Source of the DNA: Muribaculaceae bacterium
Lineage (GTDB): Bacteria > Bacteroidota > Bacteroidia > Bacteroidales > Muribaculaceae
Assembly: GCA_016281825.1 (NCBI GenBank)
Contig: JAEEJI010000025.1
Span: 1 to 33,012, forward strand
Length of the DNA stretch: 33,012 bases
Direction: 5' to 3'
Shown here: positions 1,191-31,909 of the stretch, one piece after another
Numbering within the stretch: position 1 is the first letter of the stretch
Layout: the number at the start of each line of letters is the position of its first letter
Notes under the pieces: model-generated
Told to the model about the DNA's origin: nothing
Databases searched by the model: none
The model's input: only the letters and a program-made list of their open reading frames with translations
Program-made: the position numbers and the translations under genes

Positions 1191-1793
1191 CTACAACGAG
1201 CAGAATAACGAGACCAGGAAGGGCACACTGAAGTCGACTAGAAAGCCGTGGAACATCGACAGGATGACATATTCCTGTCCACAGCATCGTGTGATGATGG
1301 GAAGGGTGGTGTCCATGGTGGTGGCACCACCAGCCGAGATGGGGGCGAGTCGCCCAAACCATCGCACCATCAGCGGCGCGCCCAATAGGGTAATAACTTC
1401 ACGCAGGATATTGGCAAGCAAGGCGACCGTACCAAGTTCCGGCCCGTGATACTGTGTGATGATGACGCTCGAGAGGGAGTAGTAAGCAAATCCTGATCCT
1501 ACGGCGAGGCATTCGGTGAGTGAGCGGTGCGGAAGAGCGAACGCGATTACCGCTGTGCCGGCCAAAGTGCCGATGATCGTCATCAACGGGAGTAACAACA
1601 GAAGCGGGTTAAGTTGTTTGAAACGTCGCAGCATCTGCGTGTCGTTGCCCACGCTGAAACCCACGGCAAAGATAAGTGCGCATAGGGCGATGAAGCTCCA
1701 TTGGTTGATGTCGATGTCGGCGGGAATCCAGTGCAACAGACCCACGGCAATTCCCAACGCAAAGAACCCAACAATGATGAGGCTACCTTTCAT
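1191..1793 (-). CDS. lysO: LysO-type (DUF340) lysine exporter, C-terminal half
   Basis: 200 aa hydrophobic protein with GSGFAYYSLSSVIITQYHGPELGTVALLANILREV, characteristic of LysO/YbjE; overlaps the upstream N-terminal half by ATGA. Confidence 0.85.
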   Translation of the reverse strand: MKGSLIIVGFFALGIAVGLLHWIPADIDINQWSFIALCALIFAVGFSVGNDTQMLRRFKQLNPLLLLLPLMTIIGTLAGTAVIAFALPHRSLTECLAVGSGFAYYSLSSVIITQYHGPELGTVALLANILREVITLLGAPLMVRWFGRLAPISAGGATTMDTTLPIITRCCGQEYVILSMFHGFLVDFSVPFLVSLFCSL

Positions 1794-2071
1794 GGTTGCC
1801 CTCCTTTCTTTTTATGCTGTACGACTAGCCACAACGCCCAGGCTAGCGCGATGCTCCCCGCCAGTCCGCCTACGCAGAGTACGACAGCTTCGATACCCAA
1901 GTCACCCAAACGACCAATCACTTGCGGGTTCATCCCCACCTCTACACCCAGACAAAACAGCAAGGCCCAGATCAATACTGTGATGACCTGAGAGAGCATC
2001 GGAAACTGCCGGCGGCGAAACAGCCATCCAACCCCGATGCCACTAAACATGATGGCGACAATGGTGAACAA
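1790..2071 (-). CDS. LysO-type (DUF340) lysine exporter, N-terminal half
   Basis: 93 aa with three predicted TM segments (WALLFCLGVEVGMNPQVIGRLGDLGIEAV); 4-bp overlap with the C-terminal half. Confidence 0.75.
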   Translation of the reverse strand: MFTIVAIMFSGIGVGWLFRRRQFPMLSQVITVLIWALLFCLGVEVGMNPQVIGRLGDLGIEAVVLCVGGLAGSIALAWALWLVVQHKKKGGQP

Positions 2072-2075
2072 TTAA

Positions 2076-2103
2076 TTAAGAATTAAGAATTAAGAATTAA
2101 GAA
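2076..2103. repeat. Heptamer array (TTAAGAA)x4
   Basis: Four exact 7-bp copies upstream of the lysO N-terminal half. Confidence 0.9.
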
Positions 2104-2110
2104 GGTCAGT

Positions 2111-2150
2111 CTAGTGCCTTTAGTTTATCTAGTGCCTCTAGATCGTCTGG
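2111..2150. repeat. 9-bp phased CTAG array (CTAG, TTAG, CTAG, CTAG, CTGG at 2111, 2120, 2129, 2138, 2147)
   Basis: Direct counting: five units at exact 9-bp spacing. Confidence 0.85.
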
Positions 2151-2199: not shown

Positions 2200-2271
2200 A
2201 GGTCGCAAGCGGACTCGAACCGCTGTACCTGGTTTTGCAGACCAGTGACTAAACCACTCATCCATGCGACC
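2200..2271 (-). tRNA. tRNA-Cys (GCA anticodon)
   Basis: Minus strand GGTCGCA...CTGGT-CTGCAAA-ACCAG...GGTTCGAGTCC...TGCGACC-T; 7-bp acceptor stem, anticodon GCA, U73 discriminator; CCA not encoded. Confidence 0.95.
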
Positions 2272-7665: not shown

Positions 7666-7801
7666 GGTTCGAATTGGTTTTGGACTGCAAAATTAGTGCA
7701 AGTTGAGAGAAATGCCAAATTTATTTGAGCATTTCCAAAACGCCGCCTAATTTATCCAAAATTAGCATTTTCTCGTCAATGTGACAAATAATTGGCACCA
7801 A

Positions 7802-10881: not shown

Positions 10882-13317
10882 ATGAAACCGATGAACTTCA
10901 AAACCATCCTGGCGATGCTCGTGGCAGTCATGGGCATCCACTGTGCGCTGGCTCAACAGCCGCATGTCTATATCAACCCCGGTCACGGCGGACACGATGC
11001 CGATGACCGCAACGTGGTGGTGCCGCCGTTTGCTCAAGGCGATACGATGGGCTTCTGGGAGTCGAACTCCAACCTGTGGAAGGGCTTTGCCCTGCGGGAG
11101 ATGCTCAAGAAAAAGGGCTACAAAACCAGCATCTCACGCATCCGCAACCGCACTGCCGATGACCTGAATCTGTCAACTATCGTGGCATTGTGCAACTCCA
11201 GTGGGGCGGACGTATTCTACTCCATCCACAGCAATGCAACAGGCGCAGGAGAGCACTACCGCATCAACTTCCCGCTGGGACTGTATCGTGGCTACACGGG
11301 GTCGCCCATCGTGCCCGGCAGCGACCAACTGGCCAAGGACTTGGGTGTCTATCTCCTCGCCAACCAGAGTACGGTGTGGAGCGAGAACAACTACCGCATC
11401 GCTGGCGACTGGACTTTTTATCCTGACTGGAACAACCAGGGCTTGGGCGTGTTGCGTGGCAACAATGCCGTGTCGATGCTCGACGAAGGCTCGTTCCATG
11501 ACTATTACCCCGAGACTTACCGCCTTATCAACCACGACTATGACTGGGTTGAGGGCTTTAACTTCTCGTTGGGTGCCGACCGTTACTTTGGCCGTTTGGA
11601 GAACTACAGCGACGACTTTGAGGGCATCATAACGGGCAACCTGCGCGATGACCGTTTGTTGCGCAATGTAACCTGGGTGTTGCTGGGCGATGACAAGCGG
11701 CAGCCCATCAATGGCGCAACTGTACGCCTGATTGACAGTGAAGGCAATGTGGTGCAGACCACCATGACCGACAACATTGAGAACGGTATCTACCTATTTA
11801 AATATGTGAAGCCCGGCACTTATACTGTTGAGGCAAGTGAACCAGAGCATTTCACCCAGACCAAGCAGGTGGTGGTTGCATCCAATGCGCCCACCTACTG
11901 CAACTTTGACCTCAAGCGTGTGCGCAACACACCGCCCGAGGTGCTCAGTTACTCGCCGGTTTGGAGTGAGGGCGATCCCGCCGAGCTTTGCGTCGAGCCT
12001 ATCGTCCTCCAGTTTAACTGGGACATGGACATCGAGGCTACCGAGGCCGCTCTGGAGATTGAACCAGCAGTCGAGGGCACATTCCGCTGGGAGGACACAA
12101 ACTATCGCATGGTATTCACGCCTGTTGATGCCTACCAGACTAATACACTCTATACCGTCACATTGCACAAGAGTGCCTGCCATGGAGGCGGCACGCCCAT
12201 GGAGCAAGACTTTACTTTCCAGTTCCTGACGCAGAGCCGCAGTCATCTCAACACGCTGGCGTTGTGGCCGCGCGAAGACTGCCAGGTACATTACAAGACC
12301 CCGTATGTTGAATTCCGCACTGACTCGCTGTTGCAATCCAAAGACTTGTTCAACCTGTTCCATGTCTATGACAAGAGTGGTACTGAACTTGATTGGAGCA
12401 AACGTCAAATCAAGAACAACAAGAATGGCGATAACTATGGCTACATTCGCCTGCCATTGTTGCGCGACCTGGTTCCGGGCGACGAGTATACTCTCAAGAT
12501 TGAGCGCGAGGTGAGCGATACCGCCGGTATCCACTTGCCCGCCGAGATGAACTATAAGTTTGTTGCAGCTGACATGGGTGTCGAGAAGCCCGAAACTGAG
12601 TTGCTTTATGATGGCGAGGATGCCTCCGGGGTCACAATAAGCGGAACCTACAAGAGTGCGTCCGTCTCAACCTCGACCGCTCATTTGTTCGGCTCCAAGT
12701 CGCTGCAGCTCAAATGGGACTTTGCCAAGGAAGATGATACCGAGGTGGAGCCGGAGCTGTTGCTAGGGCTGGAGTCTGATCAGGTCTTCACGGCTGGCGA
12801 CACATTGTGTGTGCATGTGTGGGGTGACATGAGCTGCAACAAGTTGCAAGCCGTATTCCTGCCAACGAGTGACGGAGACATGCCGGCATTGCCTGGTATT
12901 GATATGTTGGATGTCTGCACCCTTGACTTCCACGGATGGCAATACATTCAGATGGTTGTGCCCTACGGCTACAGCAAGTTCTCGGGTTTCCACATGATGC
13001 CCACCGACTCGCGTATGGGCGTGAGCGGCACGTTGCTGATTGACAATGTGCTCTATAAGCGCGGCATGCCCAATTCGGGCGTCAATCGCGTGACACTTGA
13101 CAATGTCCATGTGGGACCGGTGCCTGCCAGTGACTACATCGTTGCCAGTGCCGACTCGCGCATCCAGGGTGTCGAACTGCTTGACCTTGGCGGAAAGGCC
13201 TTGGTGCGCAATGCCACCAACTACGTCAACGTCGCCGACATCCCCGCCGGAGTTTATCTGCTCCGCGTCCATGTCAACGGCCTTACCTCAACCCACAAGG
13301 TAGCGGTTCAGCACTAA
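10882..13317 (+). CDS. Secreted N-acetylmuramoyl-L-alanine amidase (Amidase_3) with Ig-like modules and T9SS-like C-terminal domain
   Basis: VYINPGHGGHDADD, VFYSIHSNA, LDEGSFHDY; C-term GVELLDLGGKALVRNATNYVNVADIPAGVYLLRVHVNGLTSTHKVAVQH. Confidence 0.88.
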   Translation: MKPMNFKTILAMLVAVMGIHCALAQQPHVYINPGHGGHDADDRNVVVPPFAQGDTMGFWESNSNLWKGFALREMLKKKGYKTSISRIRNRTADDLNLSTIVALCNSSGADVFYSIHSNATGAGEHYRINFPLGLYRGYTGSPIVPGSDQLAKDLGVYLLANQSTVWSENNYRIAGDWTFYPDWNNQGLGVLRGNNAVSMLDEGSFHDYYPETYRLINHDYDWVEGFNFSLGADRYFGRLENYSDDFEGIITGNLRDDRLLRNVTWVLLGDDKRQPINGATVRLIDSEGNVVQTTMTDNIENGIYLFKYVKPGTYTVEASEPEHFTQTKQVVVASNAPTYCNFDLKRVRNTPPEVLSYSPVWSEGDPAELCVEPIVLQFNWDMDIEATEAALEIEPAVEGTFRWEDTNYRMVFTPVDAYQTNTLYTVTLHKSACHGGGTPMEQDFTFQFLTQSRSHLNTLALWPREDCQVHYKTPYVEFRTDSLLQSKDLFNLFHVYDKSGTELDWSKRQIKNNKNGDNYGYIRLPLLRDLVPGDEYTLKIEREVSDTAGIHLPAEMNYKFVAADMGVEKPETELLYDGEDASGVTISGTYKSASVSTSTAHLFGSKSLQLKWDFAKEDDTEVEPELLLGLESDQVFTAGDTLCVHVWGDMSCNKLQAVFLPTSDGDMPALPGIDMLDVCTLDFHGWQYIQMVVPYGYSKFSGFHMMPTDSRMGVSGTLLIDNVLYKRGMPNSGVNRVTLDNVHVGPVPASDYIVASADSRIQGVELLDLGGKALVRNATNYVNVADIPAGVYLLRVHVNGLTSTHKVAVQH

Positions 13318-13324
13318 ATCTTAA

Positions 13325-13338
13325 TTGAGAATTAAGAA
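13325..13338. repeat. Heptamer pair TTGAGAA TTAAGAA
   Basis: Directly precedes the CTAG array, as at two other loci. Confidence 0.7.
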
Positions 13339-13346
13339 TGGCTGCT

Positions 13347-13438
13347 CTAGTTCTCTAGTGTCTCTGGTTATTCTAGTTTCTCTAGTTCTCTAGTGTCTCT
13401 GATTATTCTAGTGTCTCTAGTTGTTCTAGTGCCTCTAG
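13347..13438. repeat. 9-bp phased CTAG array, 11 units
   Basis: CTAG/CTGG/CTGA at 13347, 13355, 13364, 13373, 13382, 13390, 13399, 13408, 13417, 13426, 13435; includes a 35-bp higher-order repeat. Confidence 0.9.
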
Positions 13439-13453
13439 TCGCTCACGAAATAC

Positions 13454-13490
13454 CTTTGTTCGGACGGATTACAAATCCGTCCGAACAAAG
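13454..13490. repeat. Perfect 17-bp inverted repeat with ACA triloop
   Basis: CTTTGTTCGGACGGATT-ACA-AATCCGTCCGAACAAAG; no T-tract follows. Confidence 0.95.
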
Positions 13491-13512
13491 CATAACGAGC
13501 ATTAAATAATAT

Positions 13513-13550
13513 TGCCAAACATTAAATAATGTTTATGATTGGCATTTTTT
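13513..13550 (+). terminator. Terminator-like hairpin with T6
   Basis: TGCCAA...TTGGCA followed by TTTTTT; inner AACATT/AATGTT pairing. Confidence 0.55.
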
Positions 13551-13562
13551 AACGAAAATGTA

Positions 13563-13593
13563 ATTTGGCTGCTGGGAAATAGTTGTAATTTTG
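13563..13593 (+). promoter_or_regulatory. Bacteroidetes promoter (TTTG -33, TAATTTTG -7)
   Basis: TTTG at 13563-13566 and TAATTTTG at 13586-13593, 19-bp spacer. Confidence 0.6.
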
Positions 13594-13662
13594 TGGCGAC
13601 AATAACGCTTTTTGGTGAGAATCCAATAGATATTAACCTTTGGTTTATTTTATTAACACGAT

Positions 13663-14532
13663 ATGCCTGCCATAGCAAATAATCGTAATATGACCGTCAT
13701 CGCCGAGAGCAGTAGCACTCGCACCGAGTGGACACTGATTGACGGTGGCGAAGTGGTCGAGCATGCTTTCACTATTGGTCTGAACCCCTATTTCCAGACG
13801 CGCCGCGAAATCAGTCACAGCATCCGTTTGGAACTGCCCGAGACGTTCTTCAGGCGCCGCTGGAACCATGTGTATTATTATGGTGCAGGATGTTCGAACG
13901 CCGAGAAAATAAAGGTGGTTGAGTCATCGCTGGTGGCGCAGTTCAAGACGCCGGTGACTGTCATGAGCGACTTGCTGGGCGCGGCGCGCGGATTGTTGGT
14001 GCGTGAATCGGGCTTGGCGTGCATCTTGGGCACCGGCAGTAACTCATGCATGTATGACGGCCAGGATATTCAGCGTAATGTGCGGTCGTTGGGTTTCATT
14101 CTGGGGGACGAAGGCAGTGGTTCCGCGTTGGGCCGCATTTTCTTGGGTGATGCGCTCAAAGGGGTCGCACCCGTAGGACTGACCCAGGAGTTCTTCGACA
14201 AGTACCAAGTGACGGTAGATGACATCATGGATGCGGTCTATAGCAATGCGTCGGCCAACCGCAATCTCAGTACCTATTCATTCTTTTTGAGCGAGCATCT
14301 CGACAATGACTACGTGGTGTCGCTGATTGACCGAGAGTTTACCCGATTTTTCGAGCGAAACGTTTGTCAATATGAGGGCTACGACAAGTTGCCTGTGGCG
14401 TTTGTGGGTTCTGTCGCCACCATCTATAGCGAGTTGCTGCTTGATGTAGCACAACGCTATGGAGTACACGTCCAAAAAATCGTGCGCAGCTCCATGCCTG
14501 GTCTCGTCACCTACCATTCTGCAGAGGTTTGA
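13663..14532 (+). CDS. BadF/BadG/BcrA-family ATPase, N-acetylhexosamine kinase-like paralog
   Basis: ACILGTGSNSCMYDG, LGFILGDEGSGSALGR; clear paralog of the 28565-29407 product; phosphate-1 motif is AESSSTRTEW. Confidence 0.85.
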   Translation: MPAIANNRNMTVIAESSSTRTEWTLIDGGEVVEHAFTIGLNPYFQTRREISHSIRLELPETFFRRRWNHVYYYGAGCSNAEKIKVVESSLVAQFKTPVTVMSDLLGAARGLLVRESGLACILGTGSNSCMYDGQDIQRNVRSLGFILGDEGSGSALGRIFLGDALKGVAPVGLTQEFFDKYQVTVDDIMDAVYSNASANRNLSTYSFFLSEHLDNDYVVSLIDREFTRFFERNVCQYEGYDKLPVAFVGSVATIYSELLLDVAQRYGVHVQKIVRSSMPGLVTYHSAEV

Positions 14533-14760
14533 CCTACCAGAGTATAGTTGTGCTAGATAACATCACGGCCACCGAGCAATCGGTGGCCAAATTGTTTATA
14601 GTGGGCGATTTTGCTAAAAATATGTAGTTAAACCATAAATAATGTTTAAATCACGCATTTAATAAGGTGTTTGTTTTTCTGTTTCAGAGAGATTGTTGTA
14701 TTTTTGTAGGTTGAAAGGAGAACCATGGTTCTATTGGTTCGAATGATTAATACTTTAACG

Positions 14761-17700
14761 ATGAATATAAGCATTAAGGCAAAGTCTTTGGCCGCCCTGG
14801 CGGTGGCCATCATGATGGGGTGGGGCGGAAGTCACGCCCAAACGGTCAGCGAAACGCAGCTGGCCAATGTGCAACAAGTGGTGAAGGCATTCTTGCCGAG
14901 TAACATGGGCATTGGCGAACTCAAGGCTCGTTCGGTCACGCTCGACGGTGATGATGTCGTGGTTGACTTAAGCGAAAACTTCGCCGATGTGCCCTTCACG
15001 CAAGCTAGTATCGCGCAGTTCAAGAAGGACATCAAGTCGGCTCTCGGCGGTGAATATGCCGGAAAGGACGTTCGCTTGACCATCTCAGGCAATGACATCG
15101 ACAACTACTTCGCTGAGTTCAACACCGACTACAAGCGTCGACACACACCGTTCATTACCGAGGTCGACCAGCACCGTCACTATAAGAAGGCACTCGATGG
15201 CAACATCGTCGCCGTGTGGCCCAGCCACGGCTGGTACTTCGAGCCATACCTCAACCGTTGGGAATGGCAACGTGCGCGCATGTTCCAGACAGTCGAGGAC
15301 ATGTACACCCACAGTTACATGATTCCGTTCATCATGCCCATGCTCGAAAATGCCGGTGCATACGTCTGGGATGCCCGCGAGCGCGACACTCACAACTTCG
15401 GAGCCGTGGTCGACAACGACGGTGGACAGGCGCAGACGGGCTACAGCGAGCACAACGGCAAGAACAAGTGGGAGACTGGCCAAGGAACAGGCTTCTCATT
15501 TGCCCGTGCCACATACAAGGACTTTGAGAATCCTTTCGCTGAGGGAACCTTCCGTCAGGTCAAGGCCATCAAGGACAAGAAGAAAGTATCGACCGCCGCA
15601 TGGAGCGTTGACATGCCCGAGACGGGCACCTACGCCCTCTACATCAGTTACAAGACCCTGCCCAAGAGCGTCAAGGATGCACAGTATGTCGTCAACTCGC
15701 TCGACGGAGAACGTACTTTCAAGGTCGACCAGACCATGGGTGGTGGCGTGTGGGTCTACTTGGGATCGTTCCAACTCGCCAAGGGCATGAACAAGGATGT
15801 GGTCGTGCTCAATAACTACAGCGAAGACAAGGACGGTATCATCACTGCCGACGCCATTCGCGTGGGTGGCGGTAAGGGAAACATCGTGCGTCGCGTGGCG
15901 TTGCCCACCGAGGAGAACAAGGCCATTGCCGCCAAGAACAAGGACGAGAAGTACTTGGGAAAAGAAGGCATGGACTACAAGTATGTCGGCAGTGGCGAAC
16001 ACCCTTGGTTCCACATCGGCTCGCGCTACTATCTGCAGTGGGCAGGCTTCCCCCATCAGGTCTACTCGACCAGCGAGGGCATCAACGACTATGTCGATGA
16101 CTATCGTAGCCGTGGCGAGTGGGTCAACTATCTGGCGGGCGGCAGCAGTGTGTTGCCCAAACAACCTGGTCTGAACATCCCCGTGGATGTGTCGTTCTGC
16201 TTGCACACCGATGCTGGCACGACTCCCAATGACGACATCATCGGCACACTGCTCATCTATTGCACCACCAAGGACGGCAAGCGCTTTGGCAAGTATGAGG
16301 ACGGCACACCCCGTGAACTGTCGCGGCAGTTTGCTGACATCGTATCGAGCGAGGTGGTTAACGACATCCGTGCCAAGTGGGAACCCAACTGGACGCGCCG
16401 TGGCATGTGGGACAAGTCCTACTATGAGGCGCGAGTCCCCGAGGTGCCCGCCTTGCTTATGGAGCTGCTCTCGCACCAGAATTTCGCCGACATGAAATAT
16501 GGTCTAGATCCGGGCTTCCGCTTTGATGTGAGCCGCGCCATCTACAAGGGCATCCTCAAATTCATCGCCAAGCGTGACCACCGTGACTATGTCGTGCAAC
16601 CTTTGGCGGTCAACTCGTTCGAGATTAGCGAGGCATCCTCACCGGGTACTTTCCTGCTCACCTGGAAGCCCACCCACGACAACCTGTCGCAGGAAGCCGA
16701 CCCGACGCAGTATGTCGTGCTCGAGCAGGTGGGATGCGACGCAGGCTTCAGGGAGGTAGCAGTCACGCCCGACCCGCAGTATTTGGCTCGCGTAAACGAT
16801 AACAAGATTCATTCCTACAAGATTGTCGCCATGAACGATGGCGGCCGCAGTTTCCCCAGCGAGACTCTGTCGCTGGGTGTCGCACCCAATAGCAAGGGCA
16901 CCGTCATGGTGGTCAACGGCTTCACTCGCGTGAGCGGACCAGACTGGTTCGAGGGAGAGAAATATGCTGGATTCTACGACGAGAAGGATCATGGAGTACC
17001 CTACATGCAGCAAATCAACTACCTGGGTTCGCAGCACGAGTTCCGCCGTCATCTCGAATGGCGCGATGACGATGCCCCGGGTTTTGGTGCCTGCCGCAGC
17101 AACCATGAGACCGAGGTTATTGCAGGCAACACGTTCGATTATCCCGCCATTCATGGCGAGGCGATCATGGCGGCAGGCTACTCGTTCGTCTCGAGCAGTG
17201 TGCAGGCAGTCGAGGAGCGTCCTTCGGCACTCTATGGCTACAAGGTGCTTGACCTCATCTTGGGAAAGCAGAAGGAGGTTCCCACGGGTCGTGGCGTGAA
17301 GCCCTCGCGCTTCAAGGCGTTTACCCCCGCGCTGATGGATGTCGTACGCTCTTTCACCCAGCAGGGTGGATCGGTGCTGGTCAGTGGCGCATACGTGGGC
17401 ACCGACATTTGGGACAAGGACAGTGTCAACCAGGTGGAGACCAATTTTGCCAAGAATGTGCTGGGCTTCCAGTGGGTTGACCGTTCTGCCACGCTGCGTG
17501 GTGAGGTATACACCGTACCCACACCCGGCAATCTCATGACCGATGGTGACACTTTCCAGTTCTGCAACCAGCTCAACGACAAACTCTATGCCGTCGAGTC
17601 GCCCGATGCCATCAAGGCCAGCGATGATCGTGGCTACACCTTCATGCGCTACAGCGAGAACAACATTCCCGCAGGCATCGTCAGTGACCGCTATGGTTAC

Positions 17701-17796
17701 CGAACTGTTGTCATGGGCTTCCCATTCGAGGTCATGACCGACAAGGCGCAGCGCAACCACCTCATGCAGACTGTCTTGAACTTCTTTAATAAATAG
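14761..17796 (+). CDS. Secreted Amidase_3-like protein with inserted golvesin/Xly-type domain (often annotated xanthan lyase)
   Basis: Signal peptide MNISIKAKSLAALAVAIMMGWGGSHAQ; IVAVWPSHGWYFE, SFCLHTDAGTTPND, LLMELLSHQNFADM; golvesin-like segment WSVDMPETGTYALYISYKTLP...GIITADAIRVGGG. Confidence 0.8.
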   Translation: MNISIKAKSLAALAVAIMMGWGGSHAQTVSETQLANVQQVVKAFLPSNMGIGELKARSVTLDGDDVVVDLSENFADVPFTQASIAQFKKDIKSALGGEYAGKDVRLTISGNDIDNYFAEFNTDYKRRHTPFITEVDQHRHYKKALDGNIVAVWPSHGWYFEPYLNRWEWQRARMFQTVEDMYTHSYMIPFIMPMLENAGAYVWDARERDTHNFGAVVDNDGGQAQTGYSEHNGKNKWETGQGTGFSFARATYKDFENPFAEGTFRQVKAIKDKKKVSTAAWSVDMPETGTYALYISYKTLPKSVKDAQYVVNSLDGERTFKVDQTMGGGVWVYLGSFQLAKGMNKDVVVLNNYSEDKDGIITADAIRVGGGKGNIVRRVALPTEENKAIAAKNKDEKYLGKEGMDYKYVGSGEHPWFHIGSRYYLQWAGFPHQVYSTSEGINDYVDDYRSRGEWVNYLAGGSSVLPKQPGLNIPVDVSFCLHTDAGTTPNDDIIGTLLIYCTTKDGKRFGKYEDGTPRELSRQFADIVSSEVVNDIRAKWEPNWTRRGMWDKSYYEARVPEVPALLMELLSHQNFADMKYGLDPGFRFDVSRAIYKGILKFIAKRDHRDYVVQPLAVNSFEISEASSPGTFLLTWKPTHDNLSQEADPTQYVVLEQVGCDAGFREVAVTPDPQYLARVNDNKIHSYKIVAMNDGGRSFPSETLSLGVAPNSKGTVMVVNGFTRVSGPDWFEGEKYAGFYDEKDHGVPYMQQINYLGSQHEFRRHLEWRDDDAPGFGACRSNHETEVIAGNTFDYPAIHGEAIMAAGYSFVSSSVQAVEERPSALYGYKVLDLILGKQKEVPTGRGVKPSRFKAFTPALMDVVRSFTQQGGSVLVSGAYVGTDIWDKDSVNQVETNFAKNVLGFQWVDRSATLRGEVYTVPTPGNLMTDGDTFQFCNQLNDKLYAVESPDAIKASDDRGYTFMRYSENNIPAGIVSDRYGYRTVVMGFPFEVMTDKAQRNHLMQTVLNFFNK

Positions 17797-17801
17797 GGTC
17801 A

Positions 17802-17836
17802 TCTAAAGTCTAATGTCTAAAGTCTAAAATCTAAAT
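17802..17836. repeat. Heptamer array (TCTAAAG)x5 ending 3 nt before the start codon
   Basis: TCTAAAG TCTAATG TCTAAAG TCTAAAA TCTAAAT in exact phase. Confidence 0.9.
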
Positions 17837-17839
17837 AAT

Positions 17840-19309
17840 ATGAAAAGAATTGATTGCTTTATCCCGTTTGTCAATGCCGAGCAGGCAGGGCAGACCATCG
17901 CGAACCTGAAGGCCGAGAGCTTGGTTGCTAACATCTATTTGCTGGCTGGCGAGAATGCCGAGGCTGGTGTTGAAGGATGCCACATGCTCAAGGTGAAGAA
18001 CCTGACCAGCAGCGAGACCATGCGCGTCATCGCCGGTCATGTGCAGAGCGACTATGCCATGCTCTACACCAAACACGATACCCTTAAGTTCGCCCCCTTC
18101 GCCGTCGAGCGCTTTGTCAAGCTCGCTGACGACAGTGGTGCAGGCATGCTCTATGCCGACCACTACAATGTCACCGAGAAGGGTGCCGCCAAGGCTCCGG
18201 TGATTGACTACCAGTTTGGCTCCCTGCGCGATGACTTCGATTTTGGCTCGGTGCTGCTGTTCTGTGGCTGCTGCATGAAGAAGGCTGCCGAGGCGATGAA
18301 GGCCGATTATGAGCACGCCGGACTCTATGACTTGCGCTTGAAACTCTCGCAGTTTGCCGACATCTGCCACATCAACGAGTTCCTCTACAGTGATGTCGAG
18401 CTGGACACCCGCAAGAGCGGTGAGAAGATCTTTGACTATGTCGACCCGCGCAACCGTGGCCGACAGATTGAAATGGAGGCTGCCTGTACCGAGCACCTCA
18501 AGGAGATTGGTGGCTACCTCGCTCCCGAGGTTGACGGCAAGCCCAACTTCAAGCACATCGAGTTTGACCAGGGCGACTTTGAGGTTGAGGCAACGGTGAT
18601 GATTCCTGTGCGCAACCGCATCCGCACCATCCGCGACGCCATCGACAGTGTCCTGCGCCAGAAGACCAATTTCAAGTTCAACCTCATGGTGGTGGACAAC
18701 TTCTCGACCGACGGCACCCGCGAGGCCATCGCTGAGTACGACGACCCGCGTCTGATCCACATTATTGCCGATTTCTATGACATGGGCATTGGCGGTTATT
18801 GGAACCTGGCAGCGCACCACGAGAAGGCCGGCAAGTTCATCGTCCAACTCGACAGTGACGACATGTACACGGACGAGAACACGCTGCAGACGATGGTCAA
18901 CGCGTTCTATGAGCAGAATGTGGCAATGGTCGTGGGCACCTACCTGATGACCGACATCAACTGCAACCCCATCCCTCCCGGCGTGATCGACCACAAGGAG
19001 TGGACACCCGAGAACGGCCGAAACAATGCCCTGCGCATCAACGGTCTGGGCGCTCCCCGTGCGTTCTACACTCCGGTGCTGCGCGCCGTGAAGATTCCCA
19101 ACACCAGCTATGGCGAGGACTATGCCTTGGGCTTGAACATCTCTCGCACCTACCAGATTGGCCGTGTCTATGAGCCAGTCTATCTGTGCCGCCGTTGGGA
19201 CGACAACAGCGATGCCAGTCTCGATGTCGAGAAGATGAACCGTAACAACCTCTACAAGGACCGCATCCGCACCTGGGAACTCCAGGCCCGCATCAAACTT
19301 AATTCATAA
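17840..19309 (+). CDS. Family 2 glycosyltransferase with a probable second, divergent N-terminal GT-A-like domain
   Basis: C-terminal half ATVMIPVRNRIRTIRDAIDSVLRQKTNFKFNLMVVDNFSTDGT...QLDSDDMY; N-terminal half MKRIDCFIPFVNAEQAGQTIANLKAE...YADHYNV. Confidence 0.85.
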   Translation: MKRIDCFIPFVNAEQAGQTIANLKAESLVANIYLLAGENAEAGVEGCHMLKVKNLTSSETMRVIAGHVQSDYAMLYTKHDTLKFAPFAVERFVKLADDSGAGMLYADHYNVTEKGAAKAPVIDYQFGSLRDDFDFGSVLLFCGCCMKKAAEAMKADYEHAGLYDLRLKLSQFADICHINEFLYSDVELDTRKSGEKIFDYVDPRNRGRQIEMEAACTEHLKEIGGYLAPEVDGKPNFKHIEFDQGDFEVEATVMIPVRNRIRTIRDAIDSVLRQKTNFKFNLMVVDNFSTDGTREAIAEYDDPRLIHIIADFYDMGIGGYWNLAAHHEKAGKFIVQLDSDDMYTDENTLQTMVNAFYEQNVAMVVGTYLMTDINCNPIPPGVIDHKEWTPENGRNNALRINGLGAPRAFYTPVLRAVKIPNTSYGEDYALGLNISRTYQIGRVYEPVYLCRRWDDNSDASLDVEKMNRNNLYKDRIRTWELQARIKLNS

Positions 19310-19316
19310 TTCAAAA

Positions 19317-19337
19317 TTAAGAATTAAGAATTAAGAA
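19317..19337. repeat. Heptamer array (TTAAGAA)x3
   Basis: Exact 7-bp copies just after the GT2 stop codon. Confidence 0.9.
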
Positions 19338-19345
19338 AAGATGGT

Positions 19346-19398
19346 CTAGTTCTCTAGACTTTCTAGATATTCTAGATAATCTAGAGCCTCTAGTCTAG
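19346..19398. repeat. 9-bp phased CTAG array, 7 CTAG units
   Basis: CTAG at 19346, 19354, 19363, 19372, 19381, 19390, 19395. Confidence 0.9.
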
Positions 19399-19405
19399 CA
19401 AATAA

Positions 19406-19426
19406 TTCTCAGTTCTCCATTCTCAA
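19406..19426. repeat. Inverted-orientation heptamer array (TTCTCnn)x3
   Basis: TTCTCAG TTCTCCA TTCTCAA, 10 nt before the DUF4922 start codon. Confidence 0.85.
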
Positions 19427-19435
19427 TTAAGGACG

Positions 19436-20386
19436 ATGAACCTCGGTGAGCAAATAGATGCGCTGCTTGAGCGTCAAATGCGCTCATGGCAATTGGTGCG
19501 CGACAACTATGCCGCGCTCCAGGACCTGCCCATGCGCAGTGTCTCGTTGGCTCACTCCGAGGTCATCTTGCAGTGCAACCCCGCGCGCCGCCGTTCGAGT
19601 GGCGCACGGGTGGACGCTGCCTCGCTGGCGGCACGACCATGTTTCCTGTGCCGCGAGCATCAACCCCCCGAGCAGGAGATGGTGGAGTGGGGCGGTGCCT
19701 ACAAGATTCAGGTCAATCCATATCCCATTTTCCCATCGCATCTGACAATCGCTTCGCTTGAGCATGTACCGCAGCGATTGGAGCCGCGCCGCATCGACCA
19801 GATGCTGGAGTTGGCATTGGAATTGCCCGATTGGGTACTGTTCTACAACGGCCCGCAGTGTGGAGCGTCAGCACCCGACCACATGCACTTTCAGGCGGGT
19901 TGCAAGGGTTTCTTGCCGCTTTGTGATGAGGTGGTCGACCCAGCTCTGTGGCCCGATGATGAGTTGATTGAGGCCTCTAGCGATGGCTTCATCGGCTTCA
20001 CCCAGCGCCTTGATCGCCCCATGTTCTTCATCCGCACCGAGAGCCGACCCTTGGCAAGTTTTTACATGGCGCGGTTACAGGTAGCGATGATGTTGGCGGT
20101 GGGCAGTGTAGACGAACCCATGCAGAATGTGCTTTGTTGGCACGAGGGAGACTACTACAACGTGGTGGTGTTCCCGCGCCGCAAGCATCGGCCCGACTGC
20201 TATGGCGAGGGTGAGGGGCAGTTCTTGCTAAGCCCGGCCTCGGTCGACATGGGAGGCGTCTGGGCCATCGCCGCTCAGCGTGACTATGACACCCTCACGG
20301 CAGAACACCTGCAAGCCATTATCAACGAACTGTGTGCCGACAATGCCACCATCGTCCGCATCATCGACCACTTTCACAAAACATGA
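19436..20386 (+). CDS. DUF4922, HIT/nucleotidyltransferase-like protein
   Basis: RPCFLCREHQPPEQ, VNPYPIFPSHLTIAS, NGPQCGASAPDHMHFQAG (HxHxQ). Confidence 0.85.
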   Translation: MNLGEQIDALLERQMRSWQLVRDNYAALQDLPMRSVSLAHSEVILQCNPARRRSSGARVDAASLAARPCFLCREHQPPEQEMVEWGGAYKIQVNPYPIFPSHLTIASLEHVPQRLEPRRIDQMLELALELPDWVLFYNGPQCGASAPDHMHFQAGCKGFLPLCDEVVDPALWPDDELIEASSDGFIGFTQRLDRPMFFIRTESRPLASFYMARLQVAMMLAVGSVDEPMQNVLCWHEGDYYNVVVFPRRKHRPDCYGEGEGQFLLSPASVDMGGVWAIAAQRDYDTLTAEHLQAIINELCADNATIVRIIDHFHKT

Positions 20387-20398
20387 TAAAAGAATGAA

Positions 20399-20438
20399 CT
20401 CGAACCCTCGAACCCTCGAATGCTCGAAAACTCGAAAA
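20399..20438. repeat. Octamer array (CTCGAANN)x5 in the spoIID-like 5' leader
   Basis: CTCGAA at 20399, 20407, 20415, 20423, 20431. Confidence 0.9.
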
Positions 20439-29407: not shown

Positions 29408-29412
29408 TAGAA

Positions 29413-29454
29413 TTGAGAATTGAGAATTGAGAATTTAGAATGGAGAATGGAGAA
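29413..29454. repeat. Heptamer array (TTGAGAA)x6
   Basis: TTGAGAA x3, TTTAGAA, TGGAGAA x2 in exact phase. Confidence 0.9.
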
Positions 29455-29475
29455 TCATCGCCAGCCGCATAATAA

Positions 29476-29496
29476 TTCTCAATTTTCAATTCTCAA
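29476..29496. repeat. Inverted heptamer array (TTCTCAA)x3
   Basis: TTCTCAA TTTTCAA TTCTCAA; inverted relative to 29413-29454. Confidence 0.9.
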
Positions 29497-29512
29497 TTAA
29501 AAAGCGAAGACT

Positions 29513-30339: not shown

Positions 30340-31041
30340 ATGAATAATGTAGCAAAACAGAACTCCCCCCTCTTCAGGGGGGGCTGGGGGGGGCTACGGG
30401 GTTGGGTCTGGCTCCTCATCGCTTTGTTGCCTATCACCGCACTGGCGCAGGCGAATCAGGATGTGTACTATGCCCGGCGGGCGACGCTGTTCGAACAACT
30501 CCCTGTGGGCAAGAAAGACATCATCATGCTCGGAAACAGCCTTACCGACGGCGCCGAGTGGAACGAGCTCCTCCACAACAACCACGTCAAGAACCGCGGC
30601 ATCGTGGGGGACATCGTGCAAGGCCTCTACGAACGCATGGACCCTATCCTGAAAGGCCAGCCGAAGAAAATCTTCATCATGAGCGGAGTTAACGACATCT
30701 CGCACGATGTGTCGGGCGACAGCATCGCGCGCGCCATGGAGAAGCTGATTGTGCTCATCAAGACCCGCAGTCCGCGCACCAAGATCTACCTGCAGTCGAT
30801 GCTCCCGTTCAACAACGAAGTGCGGCTCTGGAAACTGCTAAAGGACCGCGAACAGGTGGTAGTGGACGGCAACCGGGTCCTCAAGGAGGTGGCGCGTCGG
30901 CAGGGCGTGACATGGATTGACCTGTACCCGCTCTTCGTCGACGACAACGGCCGCCTCAAGGCCGAGTACACCAACGACGGCCTCCACCTCATGGGCCCGG
31001 CCTACCTCATCTGGCGCGACGCCATCAAAAAATACTTTTGA
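30340..31041 (+). CDS. Secreted SGNH/GDSL-type hydrolase
   Basis: KKDIIMLGNSLTDGAEWNELL, GVNDIS, YTNDGLHLMGPAYLIW; start reassigned to MNNVAKQ. Confidence 0.85.
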   Translation: MNNVAKQNSPLFRGGWGGLRGWVWLLIALLPITALAQANQDVYYARRATLFEQLPVGKKDIIMLGNSLTDGAEWNELLHNNHVKNRGIVGDIVQGLYERMDPILKGQPKKIFIMSGVNDISHDVSGDSIARAMEKLIVLIKTRSPRTKIYLQSMLPFNNEVRLWKLLKDREQVVVDGNRVLKEVARRQGVTWIDLYPLFVDDNGRLKAEYTNDGLHLMGPAYLIWRDAIKKYF

Positions 31042-31062
31042 TTGAGAATTGAAAATTGAGAA
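31042..31062. repeat. Heptamer array (TTGAGAA)x3 abutting the stop codon
   Basis: TTGAGAA TTGAAAA TTGAGAA. Confidence 0.85.
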
Positions 31063-31173
31063 TTATTTTGTGACTGGACACACGCCCCCGCCCTTTGGGC
31101 ACCCGCTCTTTCAGCGTCAATGGGCTTCGCCTCAGCAAAGCGTAAGCAAGCTTAGAGGGGGAGCAAGTTTAGT

Positions 31174-31208: not shown

Positions 31209-31238
31209 GGAGGAGTGTGTGATAACGCCAGGCGATAA

Positions 31239-31266
31239 TTCTCCATTCTCCATTCTCAATTCTCCA
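31239..31266. repeat. Inverted heptamer array (TTCTCCA)x4
   Basis: Overlaps the 3' end of the HAD phosphatase gene (encodes its MEN* terminus). Confidence 0.85.
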
Positions 31267-31909
31267 TTAAGTTAAGGACATCATTCGGCTGGTGGATGAT
31301 GGTGCCGGCGTAATACTCGACCAGCTCCTTCTCGGGACGGAACCCCCAGGTGACACCGACCGAGTCCACACAGGCGCGGCGCGCGGTCTCCATGTCCACA
31401 CCCGAGTCACCCACATATAGCACCTCGCGCTTCGGCACACGCGCCTTCGCGAGGATCGCAAACACCACCGAGGGGTCAGGCTTCACGTTGACCCCTTCTT
31501 TTTGTCCCTCGATGGCAACGAAGTCGATGTCGCCGAAGTAGTGGCCGATGATTCGTTGCACCGCGGCGTCATATTTGTTGCTGGCCACAGCCAGCTGCAC
31601 TCCCTGGTCGCGCAGGTCGCGCAGCAGCTCGGGCATCCCGGGGTAGGGCTTCGTGCAGTCGCAGCAGTGGTCGTCATAGTACTCCCGGAAGTCCTTCAGC
31701 AGTCGGTCGATGGTCGCGTCGTCGCGGTGTTCCTCGGGAAGCACGCGCGTGATGAGGCGACGCACGCCGTTGCCCACAAAGAATGGGTACGACGCCAGCG
31801 TGTGGGTGGCGAAGCCGTTCTTCTCCAACGCGTAGTTCGCGGCGTGCCCCAGGTCCTCGATCGTGTTGAGCAACGTCCCGTCCAGGTCAAATATCACAAG
31901 TCGTTTCAT
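31256..31909 (-). CDS. HAD-superfamily phosphoglycolate phosphatase-like hydrolase
   Basis: LVIFDLDGTLLNTIEDLG, LAVASNKYDAAVQRII, VLYVGDSGVDMETARRACVDSVGVTWGFR. Confidence 0.93.
   Translation of the reverse strand: MKRLVIFDLDGTLLNTIEDLGHAANYALEKNGFATHTLASYPFFVGNGVRRLITRVLPEEHRDDATIDRLLKDFREYYDDHCCDCTKPYPGMPELLRDLRDQGVQLAVASNKYDAAVQRIIGHYFGDIDFVAIEGQKEGVNVKPDPSVVFAILAKARVPKREVLYVGDSGVDMETARRACVDSVGVTWGFRPEKELVEYYAGTIIHQPNDVLNLMEN

Follow-up and report, generated by a model that had tools for sequence, protein, structure and literature searches.

We find that the 33,012-nt stretch of a Muribaculaceae genome analysed here (the window, which is contig 30 of a 2.83-Mb draft assembly in 281 contigs, G000) carries members of a large family of short repeat arrays, in which the tetramer CTAG recurs every 9 bp while the five bases between copies vary (CTAG-9 arrays). 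Sequence comparisons point, with about an even chance of being right, to rows of dyad sites in which CTAG and the 9-bp phase would be under selection and would be read cooperatively by a symmetric, putative DNA-binding protein. That the family is real is confirmed by its abundance. The three sites reported for the window in a preliminary description exist at the positions given there (Table 1), and further copies are plentiful in this genome and its relatives. CTAGN5CTAGN5CTAG triples occur 120 times in the window genome, where the reversed control pattern is absent (0), and are present in 40 of 49 species of the genus, at 0 to 284 per genome; none was found in 32 genomes that each represent another family of the order. 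Among named genomes, at least 118 stretches with the CTAG-9 pattern were detected. Of 119 steps within arrays of the window genome, 103 measure 9 bp, five measure 18 bp, corresponding to one mutated unit, four measure 8 bp and three 5 bp. When all 256 tetramers were scanned at periods of 5 to 15 with unlike spacers, CTAG at 9 came out on top by far (65 matches in about 107 kb, with about 0 expected), a rank that is partly due to construction because the loci had been fetched for CTAG; this bias touches neither the reversed-pattern control nor the genus-wide counts. The runners-up were shifts of CTAG-9 itself and small numbers of CTAG at 8, CCGG at 9, TCGA at 8 and CTAA at 9. Outside the arrays, CTAG is found at about half the expected frequency (104 occurrences against 196 expected in 117 kb), and 148 of the 252 CTAGs in this sequence sit inside arrays, so that the under-representation presumed earlier holds here.

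The strongest evidence for constraint comes from orthologous arrays. Arrays of the window genome were compared with the same gene gap in the close species G096 and G008, giving 37 comparisons, 19 of which retain the array. Where spacers have diverged (17 of the retained pairs), 303 of 328 CTAG positions are identical, compared with 211 of 322 spacer positions and with 87% in the adjoining flanks (p = 6e-18), a pooled core figure that is inflated because retained arrays are identified via their CTAGs. Among 14 hand-picked ungapped pairs, identity reaches 251/252 in the core, 73/94 at the core-adjacent bases and 80/141 at the three middle spacer bases. Three pairs go beyond what selecting intact arrays can produce, and equal rates would make them all but impossible: core against spacer identity is 28/28 against 14/30 (L171/G096), 24/24 against 11/25 (L183/G008) and 16/16 against 5/15 (C108_299/G096). 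The spacing is conserved as strictly as the core, and arrays are either whole or lost. These data, with spacers diverging much faster than CTAG, agree with the proposal, made in the preliminary description, that selection may act on CTAG or on the phase; the depletion of CTAG and the further copies are likewise consistent with it. In a separate observation, G000 and G008 (L260, contig C36) share the array and flanks at L171 with 99-100% identity, and these are strongly unlike those of the otherwise closer G096 (L245, contig C68), a pattern that suggests recent recombination.

The preliminary description had set selection on the core or phase against simple slippage. Selection is supported, but this contrast was too sharp because unit and multi-unit duplications are evident in array 2 of the window, in G042 and in many named loci, and higher-order repeats of 18 and 35 bp are clear. 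Tandem Repeats Finder reports a 35-bp duplication with 91% matches within array 2, indicating that tandem duplication takes part, and the near-identity of neighbouring units within arrays (362 pairs against 74 in the named set) points to local duplication. Such duplications are what neutral slippage of 9-mers containing CTAG by chance would leave. As a full account, however, neutral slippage is very improbable: it would have to yield a single tetramer at a single period across many genomes with the control pattern at zero, and its expectation of equal divergence is contradicted by spacers that are near saturation next to cores that are not.

The bases next to CTAG are also structured. In 62 of 94 named-locus arrays, the majority flanking bases are complementary (null 43 +/- 4, p < 0.0002), with 44 T|A, 16 A|T and 2 C|G pairs, indicating that the true site is a palindromic dyad of 6 bp that recurs in 9-bp steps. 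In G042 (about 14 arrays), 98% of spacers start with A and 88% end with T, and the unit there is therefore TCTAGA followed by three free bases. TCTAGA prevails in most species and ACTAGT in some, and CCTAGG is also seen. XbaI recognises TCTAGA, SpeI recognises ACTAGT and AvrII recognises CCTAGG. These species-specific flanks, together with the scarcity of CTAG elsewhere in the genome, would fit a preferred substrate of a CTAG-family type II methyltransferase or restriction enzyme (of the XbaI, SpeI, AvrII, NheI or BfaI kind), with the arrays serving as epigenetic marks. We hold this to be decidedly improbable, since there is no known reason why such sites should stand in tandem at exactly 9 bp, and CTAG is scarce in most bacteria regardless.

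As in cooperative operators, the arrays combine a dyad-symmetric site, a fixed step and a constrained core. In the cooperative reading, each array consists of W-CTAG-W sites at 9-bp steps, separated by free linkers of 3 bp, and a dimeric or polymerising protein would bind the row, with DNA rather than RNA as what is read. Cooperative reading would maintain the core and the 9-bp step and let the linkers drift; new units are gained through local tandem duplication, and whole arrays are often lost. The patchiness between species would then reflect the presence or absence of the binding protein. Binding might serve chromosome organisation, marking or local regulation, or the rows might be a restriction-modification-like or other enzyme target. 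More tentatively, and with the chances rather against it, the arrays may form a new class of dispersed chromosomal arrays in Bacteroidales, with a W-CTAG-W unit at a strict 9-bp step, a putative polymerising protein, dozens to about 100 arrays per genome, in-frame copies in essential genes among them, and a flank preference that would track the protein.

The arrays are not purely intergenic, as had been supposed: about one third of the named-locus arrays lie inside predicted frames. In-frame arrays were found in genuine genes, namely those for IleRS, GltD (glutamate synthase small subunit), GcvPB, PurL, TruB, two ABC-F proteins, a TolC-type protein and a PcrB-TadA fusion, in the last of which a CTAG array serves as the linker joining PcrB-like and TadA-like genes in one frame (L120:4595-5746). 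A 9-nt unit spans three codons. Two of the three reading frames through CTAG are open and encode L-(D/E/V/A)-x or (S/P/T)-(R/S)-x. Among 30 relatives of L071, the IleRS loop holds CTAG arrays in three species, a heptamer array in one, CCGG at 9 in one and a palindromic hairpin in several, and nothing in the rest; this loop simply tolerates inserts. Between two IleRS genes (L210 and L211), CTAG is kept although the encoded residues differ, which speaks for a DNA-level process and against a purely intergenic regulatory role.

These in-gene copies bear on the main rival of the cooperative reading, a selfish minisatellite spread by molecular drive. Here a CTAG-specific nuclease, transposase or recombinase would act on the arrays, repair or target duplication would add 9-bp units, and only units with an intact CTAG would keep expanding, so that the core would look conserved with no gain to the host. 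Drive fits the in-gene copies and the copy-number variation better than protein binding does: arrays sit in frame where essential genes encode dispensable loops or linkers, like Rickettsia palindromic elements, the same IleRS loop hosts heptamers and other repeats in sister species, and copy number varies widely, with high turnover and unit duplications. We nevertheless regard it as somewhat unlikely, though well short of negligible. Different arrays of the window genome share two adjacent spacer pairs where 1.6 are expected, so that no copying of multi-unit segments is visible and the pasting of arrays from one another is ruled out at that scale. Old arrays with saturated spacers retain every CTAG, which would call for continuous renewal, and neither an enzyme nor an empty-site footprint was found. 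Spacer words are shared more within genomes than between them, and a first-order Markov null nearly matches this excess, which may therefore be a matter of composition. In an unsystematic look for ends of the type found in miniature inverted-repeat transposable elements (MITEs), short inverted flanks were present at some arrays (AGATGGT..ACCATCT in L001) and absent from most.

Several points weigh against cooperative binding. The number of triples varies within one genus over the whole range given above, and one 100% complete genome and one one-contig genome of the genus have zero triples. The recognition of arrays by their CTAGs raises the pooled core conservation. In 18 of the 37 comparisons, the array is lost or decaying between related species, with mutated cores (for instance CTAG to CAAG in L172/G096); these losses and the range in copy number suggest that no single array is essential. 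Finally, local regulation hardly accounts for selection on every CTAG of an array located in a disposable loop of IleRS.

The position of the arrays relative to genes raises the alternative of an RNA-level element, in which intercistronic CUAG repeats would be bound by an RNA-binding protein (for instance one with an RRM) or would affect translation or decay. Most arrays (25 of the 27 classified in the window genome) occupy short gaps between co-directional genes, at a median of 17 nt past a stop and 32 nt ahead of a start. Convergent gaps with arrays outnumber divergent ones (12 against 4, p = 0.08). On the sense strand of the window genome, T precedes CTAG in 89% and A follows it in 68%. Gene pairs of the window as a whole, however, are about as often in tandem orientation, and the sense bias is reversed in other species. 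A single-strand reader would need neither dyad flanks nor a palindromic core. Both the dyad and the change in sign of the sense-strand bias make an RNA role less likely, and we rate it as unlikely overall. The searched portions of the text of papers on Bacteroides RbpB and a P. gingivalis RNA-binding protein contained no UAG motif. Pairing of complementary spacers into an RNA hairpin or a cruciform was also rejected: inverse spacer pairs number 4 against 10-14 expected in G000, a deficit, and 43 against 45-53 in the named loci, and the folding energy of arrays is no lower than that of a column-permuted null, which supersedes an initial test (mean z -0.93) that ignored column composition. Two further candidates were discarded. 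An apparent preference for start codons, first noticed in the window genome, disappeared in a larger set (18 against 17). A stop-codon device is not supported: TAG stops overlap 17 of about 113 array ends, as is expected where reading frames run into CTAG arrays, and most genes that end next to arrays do so with TAA or TGA.

Within the window, array 1 lies between the start of a gene (1790-2071, minus strand) and a hairpin trailing a tRNA gene (2200-2271, minus strand), array 2 between genes at 10882-13317 and 13663-14532, and array 3 between a glycosyltransferase-like gene (17840-19309) and a gene at 19436-20386. The tRNA was the sole match in an Rfam search. Orthologs of array 1 in G008, G028 and G085 are CTAG arrays with different spacers. 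CTAG arrays occupy the gap of array 3 in G085, G048, G034 and G028, and likewise in the distant G033, G032, G017 and G025, whose neighbouring protein shows only about 53-54% identity; G096 and G008, the closest two species, lack array 3. Other species fill this gap with inverted short repeats of TTAGG, AGTT or CGCTAAG type. Across L285-L304, the gap before the ortholog of gene 19436-20386, the repeat class differs by species, being CTAG-9, (TTAGGNN)n inverted arms, (AGTTNNN)n inverted arms or CGCTAAG repeats.

Table 1 CTAG-9 arrays of the window and the heptamer repeats beside them.
Feature	Position	Strand	Description
CTAG-9 array 1	2111..2150	.	CTAG, TTAG, CTAG, CTAG, CTGG, all in 9-bp phase
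CTAG-9 array 2	13347..13438	.	9 CTAG and degenerate CTGG, CTGA, in phase
CTAG-9 array 3	19346..19398	.	7 CTAG, spacings 8, 9, 9, 9, 9, 5
(AATTAAG)n heptamer array	2074..2103	+	adjoins array 1; neighbour, membership in an element unsupported
Short AATTGAGAATTAAG heptamer pair	13323..13338	+	adjoins array 2; neighbour only
(AATTNNN)n heptamer array	19300..19337	+	left side of array 3; neighbour only
(AATTCTC)n heptamers	19404..19428	+	right side of array 3, inverted relative to 19300-19337; neighbour only

All three arrays of the window adjoin heptamer repeats, from which a composite element with (TTAAGAA)n heptamers had been suggested. The adjacency is real for these three and does not extend to arrays in general: a heptamer-type array lies within 60 bp of 10 of 29 sampled arrays, and heptamer neighbours are present in 11 of 27 gaps with CTAG arrays compared with 13 of 37 gaps without (odds ratio 1.27, Fisher p = 0.79). 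The association is thus at chance level, and the composite element is ruled out. Inverted heptamer arrays frame array 3 (19300-19428), and in those on its left the spacer after AATT varies (AATTCAT, AATTCAA, AATTAAG), resembling a core-plus-free-spacer rule at period 7. AATT-core heptamer arrays also form inverted pairs, (AGAATTG)n ... (AATTCTC)n, at 29409-29455 with 29474-29498 and at 31041-31064 with 31238-31268, apparently a separate inverted-arm repeat family. Other repeats were seen in passing. A perfect hairpin, TTTGTTCGGACGGAT...ATCCGTCCGAACAAA, follows array 2 at 13454-13493, and a similar sequence, TCGGTCGGATTTGTAATCCG, adjoins an array in L096. At 20399-20436, a CTCGAACC/CTCGAATG/CTCGAAAA array with a TCGA core, period 8 and variable spacer stands directly before a gene. 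CCGG-9 and CTAA-9 arrays with variable spacers occur in L108 (6426-6466 and 3612-3652), and the loop of IleRS in L212 carries CCGG-9 as well. A dispersed repeat of about 80 bp at about 7686-7765 has many 75-94% matches in five of six relatives searched.

Most of the matches listed from the named-genome scan belong to Prevotella, Prevotellaceae, Muribaculaceae, Paludibacteraceae and other Bacteroidales metagenome-assembled genomes (MAGs), and the arrays occur in MAGs from gut and rumen. Cultured carriers are Prevotella jejuni, P. conceptionensis and Prevotellamassilia timonensis, with 21, 195 and 31 genome-wide matches, respectively. Locus L096 (Porphyromonadaceae bacterium UBA2720) has the same array and coordinates as G028. 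Two Verrucomicrobia MAGs and one Victivallales MAG carry 45 to 223 matches, with binning errors possible. The loci rich in CTAG-9 from rumen MAGs of other phyla are L018, L057, L111 and L119 (Victivallales) and L074 and L109 (Verrucomicrobia), some with G preceding CTAG; transfer, convergence or misbinning may explain them. Matches in Achromobacter, Teredinibacter, Legionella and others look like perfect or coding repeats.

None of the systems that we compared matches CTAG-9 in core, step and dispersion together. The operators of MetJ and TrpR are tandem dyads that contain CTAG or have it between them, and symmetric proteins bind them cooperatively. These operators have steps of about 8 bp and serve few genes in one regulon, whereas CTAG-9 has a 9-bp step and dozens of arrays beside unrelated genes. 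Iterons and the phased-binding arrays of replicons and partition systems are likewise arrays of regularly spaced protein sites, but most of their unit is kept and they lie at one replicon locus, in contrast to the chromosomal, dispersed CTAG-9 arrays with free spacers. Rickettsia palindromic elements, copies of a single sequence about 100-150 bp long, are similarly dispersed and tolerated in frame within loops of housekeeping proteins; CTAG arrays have in common only core and period, with no sign of copying between loci. The nearest described kind are the TAACTGA heptamer direct repeats of Beggiatoaceae, Bacteroidetes and Cyanobacteria (MacGregor 2015, PMC4679880), short tandem arrays that are mostly intergenic, often just ahead of start codons, patchy and proposed to be protein-binding sites (PMC4679880). 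CTAG-9 arrays are likewise short, tandem, dispersed, mostly intergenic and patchy. They depart from this class in that the whole heptamer is repeated in TAACTGA arrays, whereas here only CTAG, within a palindromic core of 4-6 bp, is conserved next to a free spacer, the period is 9 and not 7, and genes are entered in frame. The BrickBuilt minisatellites of Porphyromonas gingivalis are also dispersed in a Bacteroidales genome but lie within a MITE (PMC4596501), and the unsystematic look mentioned above found, apart from the short inverted flanks of some arrays, no MITE ends around CTAG arrays. No earlier description of CTAG-9 arrays was found in the open-access literature; as subscription papers were not covered, this does not prove absence.

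The arrays account for unusual low-complexity stretches (LDxLVx, SRxSSx) inserted into annotated proteins of Bacteroidales. If they are selfish, DNA would be expanding within essential genes by multiples of three codons with one tetranucleotide kept, which would require a specific enzyme. If instead a protein reads them, dominant gut and rumen bacteria would possess a chromosome-wide, sequence-specific binder without known counterpart, and its 9-bp footprint would make this binder traceable in hundreds of species.

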